A DNA stretch of 41,531 nt, taken from an uncultured Kiritimatiellota bacterium (GTDB lineage Bacteria > Verrucomicrobiota > Kiritimatiellia > RFP12 > DVOR01). Made by a program: the position numbers and the translations under genes. Below, piece by piece: positions 19,042 through 22,532 of the stretch (within the stretch, counting starts at the first letter, position 1; each line of letters starts with the position of its first letter). Below the pieces are notes generated by a model. The model was not told the origin of the DNA, did not search any database, and saw only the letters and a program-made list of their open reading frames with translations. The stretch lies in assembly GCA_944391065.1 (NCBI GenBank), contig CALXSH010000013.1, positions 1 to 41,531 of the forward strand, in the 5' to 3' direction.

Positions 19042-19881
19042 TCAGAGTTCCAGCGGGGCAGGAGGCAGGCCGGAATCGACGCCGTAGAGGGCGATGCCGA
19101 AGCGGTCGGCCAGTTCGACCAGGCGGTCACGTTCGAGCATGACCAGACGGCCCGCCTGGAAGGCGACGGCCGTAATGCCGTACTTGCGGCAACGGCGCAG
19201 GGTATGTTCGCCGAAGACCGGAATGTCGAAGCGCATGTCATGGCCTTCCTTGGCGACCTTAATCATGACCGCGCCCTTGCCGCCGAGCTTTGATCCGCGC
19301 TTCAGCGTCGCATTGGTTCCCTCGAAGGCCTCGACCGCGAGAATCATTCCTTCCTTCACGAGGATGGTCTGGCCGATGTCGAGATTGCAGATGCCCATGG
19401 CAGCCTTCATGCCGAATTCGACGTCCGACTTCTCCTGTTCGGTCAGGCCGCGGTGATTGAGCGGCCCGGCGCCGGGAATGTGGCTCCCCATGAAGCAGGA
19501 GGCCGGAATGACGCGGGCACCGCGTGCCTCGATTTCTCGAATGATGCTACCGAAGATGGTATGGGCGTTCTTGACCTTCAGACTCGCCAGAATGCTTCGC
19601 GTGAGCGCGTCGAAGCGGCTGCGGAAGAGCGCCACGGGCGTGATCTGCCCAACCAGCATGATGTGCCTGTAGTGATGGCTCTCCATCCAGTCCAAGGCGG
19701 TCTGCAGTTCACCGATGCCGAAGACGCGGCTCTCGTCGGCTTCCCGCAGCAGACGGCGCGAGACCAGACCGCGGATGCCGGCCACGACGATGCGCCTGAC
19801 GCCCGCGGCGCGTGCGCCGTCAAAGGCCGCTTCGGGGTAGGCACCTTTGCAGGCAAAAATGACAAGTTCTTCCGGAACCAT
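19042..19881 (-). CDS. lpxI: UDP-2,3-diacylglucosamine pyrophosphatase LpxI
   Basis: A 279-residue LpxI (formerly DUF1009). It cleaves UDP-2,3-diacylglucosamine to lipid X and UMP in the lipid A pathway, replacing LpxH. Signatures are the N-terminal nucleotide-binding part (FACKGAYPEAA), VGQITPVALFR and the conserved C-terminal catalytic stretch with VEAFEGTNATLKRG, KGAVMIKVAKEGHDMRFD and PVFGEHTLRRCR. It shows the organism makes lipid A. The start lies five bases downstream of the small FtsB/DivIC-like gene. The ATG at 19881 has only a weak ribosome site, suggesting translational coupling. It is the last gene before a terminator. Confidence 0.92.
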   Translation of the reverse strand: MVPEELVIFACKGAYPEAAFDGARAAGVRRIVVAGIRGLVSRRLLREADESRVFGIGELQTALDWMESHHYRHIMLVGQITPVALFRSRFDALTRSILASLKVKNAHTIFGSIIREIEARGARVIPASCFMGSHIPGAGPLNHRGLTEQEKSDVEFGMKAAMGICNLDIGQTILVKEGMILAVEAFEGTNATLKRGSKLGGKGAVMIKVAKEGHDMRFDIPVFGEHTLRRCRKYGITAVAFQAGRLVMLERDRLVELADRFGIALYGVDSGLPPAPLEL

Positions 19882-20185: not shown

Positions 20186-20215
20186 ATTATCGTCCATTCG
20201 CGGATTATAAGTCAA
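20186..20215 (-). promoter_or_regulatory. possible promoter for the ftsB/divIC-like gene and lpxI
   Basis: On the minus strand TTGACT (20210-20215), an 18-base spacer and GATAAT (20186-20191). It overlaps the end of uppP and would give a leader of about ten bases. It could allow the last two genes to be expressed apart from the metK riboswitch. Confidence 0.45.
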
Positions 20216-21005
20216 GAAAAAAGAAGAAAAAGATGCCTACGGCCAGGCAGTAGAAGCCGAAAAGCCAGAACCGGTGACGGGCCAGGAGTTTCACCATTCC
20301 CGCGACGCTGAGATAGCCGACAATGCCAGAGACCGCGAGACCGGCGATGGCCACAGTCGGGGTCAGCCCCTCGAAGACCCCCGTATTGCCGTCCTTGAAG
20401 GCCTTCAGAAGATGGAGGATGTTGCCGCCGAGGATGACGGGCACGACCATGAGGAAGGAGAAGGAGGCGATTTTATCCGAGGCGATGCCGAGGACGCGGG
20501 CAATGGAGATGGTGCTGCCGCTGCGGGAGATGCCGGGCAGCATAGCGAAGGCCTGCGCAATGCCCACGAGGAAGGCCCGTCCGGGCGTCACCTCGCGGCC
20601 CCGGTCACGGCCGAGAACGCGCGAGAGCAGCAGGATGAGACCTGTGACCATCAGCAGGCAGGCCACGAGACGGGGCGATTCTGCCGCGTGCTCGAGTTCC
20701 TCCTCAAAGAGCAGCCCCAGCGCGACGGCCGGAATCATCGAGACGATGACCGAGAGGGCGAATGTCCAGGCCGAACGCTCCCGTTTGACCAGCCCGACGC
20801 AGATGTCCCCGATGAAGCGGCGGTAGTAGGCAAAGACCGCCACCAGCGTTCCCAGATGAAGGAGAAGCTCCACGCCCAGCCCGCTGACGGCTTCGAAGCC
20901 CAGCAGTTCCTTGGCCAGAACCAAGTGACCGGAGGAGCTGACCGGAAGGAATTCGGTCAGCCCCTGGACGATCGCCAGGATAATCATGTGCAACAGGTCG
21001 GACAT
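20205..21005 (-). CDS. uppP: undecaprenyl-diphosphatase (BacA type)
   Basis: A 266-residue membrane enzyme with about eight hydrophobic helices. It removes a phosphate from undecaprenyl diphosphate so that the carrier lipid can be reused for wall and O-antigen synthesis. Both catalytic signatures are intact: EFLPVSSSGHLVL at residues 18-30 and PGISRSGST at about residues 160-170. AAGGAG precedes the ATG, which starts 26 bases after metK, so it is probably transcribed with metK. The Phe-rich C-terminus (FFFFF) is unusual but lies within the last helix. Confidence 0.95.
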   Translation of the reverse strand: MSDLLHMIILAIVQGLTEFLPVSSSGHLVLAKELLGFEAVSGLGVELLLHLGTLVAVFAYYRRFIGDICVGLVKRERSAWTFALSVIVSMIPAVALGLLFEEELEHAAESPRLVACLLMVTGLILLLSRVLGRDRGREVTPGRAFLVGIAQAFAMLPGISRSGSTISIARVLGIASDKIASFSFLMVVPVILGGNILHLLKAFKDGNTGVFEGLTPTVAIAGLAVSGIVGYLSVAGMVKLLARHRFWLFGFYCLAVGIFFFFFLDL

Positions 21006-21031: not shown

Positions 21032-22210
21032 TCAGAGCAGGGCCGCGCGCAGCGCGTCGGTGCGGTTGAGGCGTTCCCACGGGGTGTTGGCCTTGCCGAA
21101 GTGACCGTACGTGCAGGTGTCGGAATAGCTCCAGCCCTTGGGGTGGGTGAGGTCCAAGTCGCGGATCAGCGCCGCGGGACGGAAGTCGAAGAGCCCTCCG
21201 TGCATCAGGAAGTCCGCGATTTTCTCCTCGGCGACCTTGCCGGTGCCGTAGGTGGAGACGTTGATGCTCATCGGCTGCGCCAGGCCGATGGCGTAAGCCA
21301 CCTGCACCTCGCACTTCGAGGCCAGACCGGCCGCGACGATGTTCTTGGCCACATAGCGGGCGTAGTACGCCGCGCTGCGGTCCACCTTTGAAGGATCCTT
21401 GCCCGAGAAGGCGCCGCCGCCGTGAGAGCCGACCCCGCCGTAGGTGTCGACGATGATTTTGCGGCCCGTCAGACCGGAGTCACCCGCTGGACCGCCGATG
21501 ACGAAGCGTCCCGTCGGATTGATGTGAAAGGCTGTCCGGTCCGTCAGCAACCCCGTCGGCGCCAGCGTCTCGCGGATGACCGCCTCGATGTCGCGGTGAA
21601 TCCGTTCCTCCGGCACCTCGCGTGTCTGGTGGGAGCATACGACCGTCGTGATTTCGCGCGGAACGCCGCCGTCGTAGAGCACCGACACCTGGGCCTTCGC
21701 GTCGGGACGCAGATAGGGAATCGTCCCGTCCCGGCGGAGCTCGGACAGCTTCATTAGAATGTGATGCGAGGCCACGGCCGTAACCGGCAGGAATTCTGGC
21801 GTCTCATCGGTCGCATAGCCGAACATCATGCCTTGGTCGCCCGCGCCCTGCGCCTCGGGATCGTCGCGGTCAACGCCCTGATTGATGTCGGGCGACTGCG
21901 CGTGCAGATTGTTCACATAGGCAAAATCCTGCCAGCAGAATCCCTCGGCGTGATCGTCATAACCGATGCGGCGGATCGCCTCCTGGGCGATGGCCTTCGT
22001 GTTGAGGCTTTCAAACCCCTTGCAGGTAATCTCGCCCAGGTTGACGACGAGGTTGGTGCCGCAGGCGGTTTCGCAGGCCACGCGTGCCCGGTCGTCAAGT
22101 GCCAGGCAGGCATCGAGAATGGCGTCGGAGATCGCGTCGGCGACCTTGTCGGGATGGCCCTCGGAAACAGATTCCGAAGTGTAGACGTGGCGGGCGGTGA
22201 GCTTGCTCAT
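21032..22210 (-). CDS. metK: S-adenosylmethionine synthetase
   Basis: A 392-residue enzyme that makes SAM from methionine and ATP in the cytoplasm. Signatures are SESVSEGHPDKVADAISDAI near the N-terminus, GAGDQGMMFGYA (the ATP-binding hexapeptide region) and GGAFSGKDPSKVDRSAAY (the P-loop-like GGGAFSGKD). The frame is open to 22300, but the ATG at 22210 has an AAGGA site 5-9 bases upstream and starts MSKLTARHVYTSESVSEGH, as the family does. The extra upstream codons would run through the leader hairpin and are not used. The leader carries a SAM-II-like aptamer and terminator hairpin (22241-22364), so product feedback is likely. Confidence 0.96.
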   Translation of the reverse strand: MSKLTARHVYTSESVSEGHPDKVADAISDAILDACLALDDRARVACETACGTNLVVNLGEITCKGFESLNTKAIAQEAIRRIGYDDHAEGFCWQDFAYVNNLHAQSPDINQGVDRDDPEAQGAGDQGMMFGYATDETPEFLPVTAVASHHILMKLSELRRDGTIPYLRPDAKAQVSVLYDGGVPREITTVVCSHQTREVPEERIHRDIEAVIRETLAPTGLLTDRTAFHINPTGRFVIGGPAGDSGLTGRKIIVDTYGGVGSHGGGAFSGKDPSKVDRSAAYYARYVAKNIVAAGLASKCEVQVAYAIGLAQPMSINVSTYGTGKVAEEKIADFLMHGGLFDFRPAALIRDLDLTHPKGWSYSDTCTYGHFGKANTPWERLNRTDALRAALL

Positions 22211-22240
22211 AGTGTCCTTTCCGGTCCCCGGCCGGAATAC

Positions 22241-22269
22241 AAAGAAAGGCAGTGCGTGACCGCACTGCC
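22241..22269 (-). terminator. terminator-like hairpin in the metK leader
   Basis: On the minus strand GGCAGTGCG pairs with CGCACTGCC (22248-22256 with 22261-22269, a perfect 9-bp stem with a 4-base loop) and is followed by TTTCTTTG. It sits between the riboswitch-like element and the metK ribosome site, where premature termination would cut off the whole cluster. The U tract is interrupted by one C, so strength is uncertain. Confidence 0.7.
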
Positions 22270-22293
22270 GCCTGACGTTCCGTTTCCGGGGTG

Positions 22294-22364
22294 CCTCCAT
22301 TTTAGCGTACAGTGTCGAAACCTTTGCGTCCGCAAGCAGGAGTGCTTCTCAAATCAACGCAAAG
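22294..22364 (-). promoter_or_regulatory. SAM-II-class riboswitch candidate upstream of metK
   Basis: Reading the minus strand, P1 is CUUUGCGUU with GACGCAAAG (9 bp including one U-G pair). Directly after the 5' strand comes GAUUU. The loop then has an extra 5-bp hairpin (AAGCA/UGCUU) whose loop is CUCC, and ends CC-N3-UUGC-N before the P1 3' strand. Downstream follow CUGUAC and GCUAAAAUGGAGG. The SAM-II aptamer has the same order: P1, GAUUU, CC-N3-UUGC-N, P1', UGUA, GCUAAAAAGG. The pseudoknot would pair GCG with CGC (P2a, keeping the U-U beside it) and CUCC with GGAG (P2b). It differs from the classic element by the extra loop hairpin and a longer third loop. SAM-V shares this core and is the main alternative. 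Confidence 0.72.
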
Positions 22365-22371
22365 TCCGCAT

Positions 22372-22401
22372 ACAATAACATAAAGGCATTCACGCGTACA
22401 A
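22372..22401 (-). promoter_or_regulatory. promoter for metK and its leader RNA
   Basis: On the minus strand TTGTAC (22396-22401), an 18-base spacer and TATTGT (22372-22377). The predicted start near 22365 falls exactly at the first base of the riboswitch P1 stem, which supports both calls. Confidence 0.55.
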
Positions 22402-22532
22402 CGGAAATTCGCCGTCCTCCGCCGAACCGGAGCGTGCATGATTAAATGCCGCACCATCGGACCGTAGCGGCCTGTGCGCCTGAGGCAGCCTGCCGGGATG
22501 CATGGACGCCGGGCGTTGGCCGTCGTGTCGGC

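Follow-up and report, generated by a model that had tools for sequence, protein, structure and literature searches.

A probable SAM-II-type riboswitch in the metK leader of an uncultured Kiritimatiellota bacterium, predicted to act as a transcriptional OFF switch

The leader of metK, the gene for S-adenosylmethionine synthetase, in an uncultured Kiritimatiellota bacterium raises the question of whether a riboswitch of the SAM-II type can control this gene outside the hosts described for that class. In the window (the whole stretch of DNA analysed, 41,531 nt), metK occupies 21032..22210 on the minus strand and encodes three S-AdoMet_synt Pfam domains. Directly upstream of it, the minus strand at 22369-22292 reads as a series of blocks in SAM-II order. 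We consider it quite probable that this leader is a SAM-II-type pseudoknot aptamer, predicted to bind SAM, and that, at high SAM, it stops metK transcription at a terminator further along the leader. It would thus be a metK-specific transcriptional OFF switch in an unexpected host, with both SAM binding and termination predicted from the sequence.

Along the minus strand, the leader opens with an extended -10 element and the 5' strand of helix P1. GAUUUG, AGC-n-CUCC and UUGC come next, before P1 is closed; a linker then leads to GCUAAAAUGGAGGC, and a strong hairpin with a U-rich tail precedes the metK ribosome site. P1 joins CUUUGCGUU (22356..22364) to GACGCAAAG (22322..22330) through eight Watson-Crick pairs and one U.G, a 9-bp stem recognised from the sequence and from two-sided changes across leaders. 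It is followed by GAUUUG (22350..22355, with GAUUU at 22355-22351), by homology the third strand of the SAM-pocket triplex. CC at 22340-22339 is separated by three nucleotides from UUGC (22335-22332), which would form part of the SAM pocket and of the 5' strand of P2a, the P2a pairs using 22333-22331. UGUAC lies at 22311-22307 and GCUAAAAUGGAGG at 22306-22294, the latter containing the putative SAM-contact strand GCUAAA (22301..22306). The 5' strand of P2b, GC-a-CUCC (22339..22345), pairs with GGAGGC at 22298-22293, an assignment supported by covariation. We use P2a for the GCG/CGC helix beside the pocket and P2b for CUCC/GGAG; PMC6061858 applies the name P2a to the latter helix. On direct reading, P1, GAUUU, CC-N3-UUGC and the downstream blocks were all found in SAM-II order, as the initial annotation of this DNA had described them.

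The pocket motifs that mark SAM_alpha, the Rfam family of SAM-II, are thus present in the expected order, and GAUUUG, UUGC and GCUAAA are invariant in 12 Kiritimatiellae leaders. The same is true of the positions that match the SAM-V pocket (UUU, UU and UAAA), mapped by motif order from the contacts given in PMC6061858. The pattern GATTTG-N5..25-TTGC-N15..60-GCTAAA occurs once in the window and twice in total in 200 first-order Markov sequences of window length, or about once per 100 windows. The block order alone is therefore modest evidence, and it is the comparative evidence that decides.

Rfam gave no match anywhere in the window at the gathering cut-off, and a whole-Rfam scan of 22200-22440 at E<=10 returned no SAM family, including SAM-V (presumably RF01826). 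The cut-off of SAM_alpha (RF00521) is 36 bits; the best same-genus metK leader reaches 18.7 bits (G011) and the spirochaete leader L078, discussed below, 25.1 bits. At E<=1, SAM_alpha produced 19 matches in 30 genomes, three of them exactly on metK leaders (G011, G016 and G010) and 16 elsewhere, and 10 of 14 control genomes also gave matches. SAM-I (RF00162) had no match at E<=0.001 in any of 21 genomes. By the Rfam cut-off, the leader is not a member of RF00521; by its predicted structure it would work like one. The initial annotation had named two contrary signs, the lack of any SAM model above threshold and relatives that do not conserve the blocks. The first is true and the second is false, as GAUUU, UUGC and GCUAAAA are kept upstream of metK in 12 of the 17 genomes of the genus.

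In these 12 genomes (G000, G002, G004, G007, G008 and G010-G016, the window's own counted) the aptamer lies directly upstream of metK. It is absent from G001, G003, G005, G006 and G009, and metK itself was matched in all 16 other genomes of the genus. In a MetK tree of 15 of the 17 genomes (G010 and G014, with partial genes, left out), the five non-bearing genomes group together in a single clade (support 100/100) that lies within the bearing rows. The simplest history is that the ancestor of the genus acquired the aptamer and that it was lost once; the absence in this clade is likely that loss. Each bearing genome has one match at E<=0.1, except G011, where a decayed second aptamer with changed pocket bases (G011:C1:399683-399762, L073) precedes a metK pseudogene copy with internal stops, so that riboswitch and gene appear to decay together. 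When 161 genomes of the order were searched with our model R1, 13 gave a match at E<=0.1 and all strong matches fell in this genus; G060, the thirteenth, scores 23.3 bits. In a 387-genome sample of the phylum the strong matches of R1 were the seven sampled bearing genomes of the genus; both searches used stricter filters that lose weak matches. Four further matches in the phylum sample scored 22.7-30.1 bits. The three of them that were read, G257, G333 and G248, lack the motif blocks and were rejected as false; G481 (22.7 bits) and, in the order, G060 are further weak matches.

Covariation further argues for the proposed fold, all counts given here being ones that ignore shared descent. Within the genus, P1 shows two-sided changes at 5 of 11 pairs in a MAFFT alignment not fitted to P1. 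Over 15 leaders from three phyla, such changes occur at 11 of 11 pairs (35 two-sided cells, reached by 0 of 500 shuffles), in an alignment that was fitted to P1 and so leans towards it. The P1 stem of SAM_alpha is thus recovered with and without such fitting. A larger alignment (A6), whose model knows only P1, comprises 32 of 39 metK-bearing or presumed metK leaders, with L100, L104 and L106-L110 left out as near copies. In it, P2b has two-sided changes at 3 of 5 pairs, and P2a keeps its G-C and C-G pairs and never varies. For the whole structure, the cells paired, the two-sided cells and the covariation score were reached by 0 of 500 shuffles and the number of pairs with two-sided changes by 129 of 500, a limit that also applies to the SAM_alpha pseudoknot as recovered here through P2b and the invariant P2a. 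Inside the genus, no change is seen in P2a or in five of the six P2b pairs, and the four core pairs of P2b lack covariation, so that the covariation of P2 rests mostly on other phyla. The pseudoknot pairs GCG/CGC and CUCC/GGAG of the initial annotation thus hold up, P2b through its changes across phyla and P2a as kept and invariant. Its suggestion that related metK leaders be compared for covariation bore fruit for P1 and not for P2a.

According to the annotation, loop 1 also held an additional stable hairpin (AAGC/GCUU) that belonged to the aptamer. All four of its pairs are possible in 11 of 12 leaders, and it turns up in single-strand folds. However, it shows no two-sided change, loses two pairs in G007, would occupy the uridines of UUGC and, by eye, is not formable in the Neisseriaceae leaders described below. 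The same AGC-n-CUCC bases pair instead with GGAGGC: the extra loop bases extend P2b by a C-G and a G-C pair beyond a one-base bulge, with a compensated change to U-A in G002 (AAGUCCUCC/GGAGACA), a single event that is reached by 48 of 500 shuffles. With P2b extended in this way, loop 1 is only ~3 nt longer than in the Rfam SAM_alpha consensus. We hence rejected the hairpin as an aptamer part, a role we now regard as very unlikely; it may represent a ligand-free fold.

How might such an aptamer control metK? In 11 of 12 leaders an extended -10 element (TGnTATAAT-like) ends 17-18 nt before GATTTG. The element of the window, TGTTATTGT (22372..22380, minus strand), was picked by eye, the script having picked another hexamer, and stands at nearly the same place. 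A consensus promoter scan found no sigma-70 site at the window leader; the nearby extended -10 makes a transcription start near the first P1 base, where it had been proposed, plausible. Past the aptamer, the terminator scan recovered the perfect 9-bp hairpin with a T-rich tail that had been noted before the metK ribosome site, at 22248..22269 on the minus strand, with its tail UUUCUUUGUA at 22247-22238. The 501-base scanned region holds three terminator-like sites, compared with a shuffle mean of 0.4. Over 12 leaders, two-sided changes occur at six of the nine hairpin pairs and at five of six pairs of an outer helix, P3 (22286..22291 with 22226..22231), which encloses the terminator; terminator and outer helix together show them at 11 of 15 pairs (0 of 500 shuffles). 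A hairpin with a U-tract was accepted in 8 of 12 leaders by a strict script, and one with a U-rich stretch in 11 of 12 by eye. In G011 the U-tract and most of the arm complementarity are gone.

A stretch of 10-12 nt running up to and into GCUAAA is complementary to the 5' arm of the terminator. In the window, the segment concerned, CACUGUACGC (22305..22314, minus strand), comprises linker and the 3' strand of P2a and would pair as CACUGU-a-CGC with GCGGCAGUG (22263..22271) in the arm region, a partner supported by complementarity and covariation. The segment was first spotted by eye and tested afterwards. Its complementarity tracks the terminator arm across the genus: the pairing averages -12.3 kcal/mol for a leader's own strands and -6.2 for shuffled strands (11 leaders), and own pairs exceed swapped ones with p 0.0004 in 12 leaders, this being the best of 30 windows scanned along the aptamer, or p 0.0015 without G011. 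No other of these 30 windows pairs as strongly or gives as good an own-over-swapped signal. In four leaders the duplex is weak: G011 (-4.6), G016 (-6.2), G015 (-7.4) and G010 (-8.3). In 10 of 12 leaders the best arm duplex found is less stable than the terminator hairpin, with a tie in G014 and G013 scored on its apical part only. As the segment shares C-G-C with P2a and abuts the SAM-contact U, P2a and the duplex with the arm are mutually exclusive. The strand before GCUAAA is thus likely an antiterminator that SAM binding would break, a feature new here. An antiterminator formed from loop-1 bases (AGCACUCC) was also considered and rejected, its pairing with the terminator arm being strong in energy and not partner-specific (p 0.077).

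With this in mind, one may propose the following mechanism. In the absence of SAM, CACUGUACGC would pair with GCGGCAGUG as an antiterminator, and metK would be read. In its presence, the C-G-C of CACUGUACGC would be locked into P2a and the next U drawn into the pocket, setting the terminator arm free; the terminator would then form and transcription would stop before metK. The outcome would be a negative feedback of SAM on its own synthetase. Of the earlier proposal that metK transcription ends when SAM is high, the terminator is borne out by sequence comparison, which adds an antiterminator, and the dependence on SAM stays a prediction.

A SAM-II-type aptamer could also act mainly on translation, with SAM closing P2b, P3 relaying the signal to the metK ribosome site and the hairpin accounting for a constitutive share of short RNA. 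We regard this as unlikely for the window, even though GGAGG in P2b is Shine-Dalgarno-like and the covarying P3 spans the stretch from directly behind GGAGGC to shortly ahead of the metK ribosome site. A precedent exists in the metA SAM-II riboswitch of S. meliloti, which, according to PMC9373788, controls translation from a distance, across a terminator that lies in between. Against such a role, metK starts 88 nt after GGAG and has its own ribosome site, GGAAAGGA, the hairpin with its U-rich stretch is kept across the leaders to the extent given above, and the antiterminator is supported by own-over-swapped pairing. Further arguments for translational control come from outside the genus, where the strict script that accepts 8 of 12 Kiritimatiellae leaders finds a terminator-like hairpin at one of 28 loci (26 of them with metK). 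In the spirochaete leader L095, the 3' strand of P2b, GGGAG, lies 9 nt before the metK start codon, which suggests translational control by the same aptamer in that spirochaete. Taken together, these observations make the terminator platform look typical of the genus, with other platforms elsewhere, and for the Kiritimatiellae leader we keep termination as the preferred reading.

In the window, metK is followed on the minus strand by uppP/bacA (20205..21005, PF02673), which is possibly co-transcribed, a DivIC-like gene and, further downstream, lpxI (19042..19881, PF06230 and PF17930). The polar effect on uppP and lpxI that had been suggested for the switch is possible in this genome. However, uppP was not found by tblastn (E<=1e-4) within up to 1.5 kb beyond metK in 14 other same-genus genomes, so an effect on uppP is not a conserved purpose. 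An upstream AUG in AAAAUGGAGG was rejected as the start of a conserved leader ORF: 7 of 12 leaders have the codon, and only those of G000, G004 and G008 can be read from it into metK in frame and free of stops. In the window, this AUG in the 3' strand of the aptamer opens a frame (22300-22210, minus strand) that is in frame with metK, is also open in G004 and G008 and is not conserved.

Does the same RNA occur outside the genus? A pattern scan of an 84,980-species genome collection returned 13 loci, namely 10 of this group (Kiritimatiellae, Kiritimatiellaeota or Lentisphaeraceae; five of the 10 from ruminant cecum, colon or rectum), one from a Spirochaetales MAG and two from Neisseriaceae MAGs. 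The three outsiders (L078, L085 and L086) all lie upstream of metK; in them, GGAGG, GATTTG, CTTGC and GCTAAAA are conserved by construction, because the scan pattern required these blocks. The labels 'spirochaete' and 'betaproteobacterial' used here rest on these three loci and on searches confined to their orders. At E<=0.01, model R2 matched 39 of the 139 genomes searched in the spirochaete's order and 44 of the 300 in the order of the Neisseriaceae record. Twenty loci were read from each set. metK lies downstream in 19 of the spirochaete loci, several of which are near copies, and the contig ends first in the remaining one; the betaproteobacterial-order loci precede metZ (nine), metK (six), metX (four) and a gene for a MetN-like protein that scores below the NCBIfam cut-off (one).

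Model R3 was trained on 20 spirochaete and betaproteobacterial metK leaders only (the contig of L098 is too short to show the gene). The rows of this training set come from a search and alignment with R2, a model in which Kiritimatiellae are included. Across 40 genomes, R3 places the metK leader at the top in every one of the 12 bearing genomes, with scores of 39.1-58.5 bits and with 41.4 bits (E 1.6e-7) for the window leader; the runners-up are the decayed G011 copy (32.7 bits) and, as best other match, G036:C603 (27.5 bits). Nothing better than E 0.9 was found in the non-bearing genomes of the genus. We set aside G036:C603 (L132) as a likely contaminant: it is a leader of betaproteobacterial type, precedes metX and comes from a 3.3-kb contig in a MAG of this order whose listed contamination is 6%. 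A chance resemblance, in which an ordinary conserved leader binds no metabolite, would fit the lack of an Rfam match. It is extremely improbable in view of the 12 of 12 top matches given by a model trained on other phyla and of the covariation of P1 and P2b over three phyla. The same matches, together with the retention of the leader in the genus, support the original claim of a SAM-II-type aptamer with metK as its target in an unusual host.

Nor do we expect the fold to bind another ligand, such as SAH, methionine or another SAM relative. Riboswitch variants have switched ligand before, from SAM-I to spermidine (PMC10853860), yet the positions matching the SAM-V pocket are invariant in the 12 leaders and the downstream genes are metK, metX, metZ and one for a MetN-like protein, which makes a changed ligand very improbable.

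SAM-II resembles the present leader in P1, the pseudoknot, the GAUUU/UUGC/GCUAAA core order, a start next to P1 and a terminator after P2; in PMC1273637, SAM-II transcripts start a few nucleotides before P1 and a terminator follows P2. The Kiritimatiellae leader differs in falling below the Rfam cut-off, in its target, metK, in its host, and in its P2b, which is GC-n-CUCC/GGAGGC with a bulge, whereas that of the consensus is GC-rich. The hosts of SAM-II are given as mostly alphaproteobacteria, a few other proteobacteria and Bacteroides (PMC1273637), or as alpha- and gammaproteobacteria together with Bacteroidetes, the alpha and beta groups having terminators (PMC2258182), and the class is described as mainly alphaproteobacterial and acting on metA, metX, metY and metZ (PMC1273637, PMC4239095, PMC9373788). 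The SAM-II long loops family (RF01726) comprises SAM-II relatives with changed loops, listed in PMC2864571 for Bacteroidetes and marine samples; in contrast to the present RNA, none of its 12 sub-threshold matches at E<=1 in 30 related genomes falls on a metK leader. SAM-V has a pocket virtually identical to that of SAM-II and is translational (PMC6061858), and it is without the 3'-terminal pairing element that most SAM-II have (PMC2704228) and that is present here.

The betaproteobacterial metXZ element, published in 2014 as a separate element, is likewise a pseudoknot with a terminator upstream of metX or metZ (PMC4239095). R2, a model from metK leaders, matches leaders of metX and metZ, and on gene context and architecture the metX/metZ leaders L119-L131 are probably this element, so that the metXZ RNA element would be a SAM-II. 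Among 20 outside loci tested at the gathering threshold, one metZ leader, L127, reaches the SAM_alpha cut-off at 36.1 bits. With somewhat less assurance than for the window leader, we favour a metK-linked SAM-II branch below the Rfam threshold that spans Kiritimatiellae, spirochaetes and betaproteobacteria, acts through terminator and antiterminator in Kiritimatiellae and, in at least one spirochaete, directly through the ribosome site of metK, and includes the metXZ element in the same family. Among the open-licence papers listed for SAM-II with its variants, Verrucomicrobia, Kiritimatiellae, spirochaetes, betaproteobacteria or metK, no title or consulted passage reports such a metK leader.

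If true, this branch would provide the regulator of metK that earlier searches failed to find in these lineages. The same pocket here precedes metK, whose product synthesises SAM, in groups whose leaders do not score up to the cut-off of the Rfam model. metK regulators in betaproteobacteria have been sought without success, according to PMC4239095, and the betaproteobacterial metK leaders are a direct candidate for them. As these results show, the current SAM_alpha model misses whole clades, and the 32-leader alignment offers a base for a better one. One further observation concerns the metZ leader of locus L119, where Rfam family RF02424 (Burkholderia sRNA Bp2_287) matches positions 1474-1646 of the minus strand with 203.9 bits, on the strand opposite to the SAM-II-type leader; this family may be a wrong-strand reading of a riboswitch leader.
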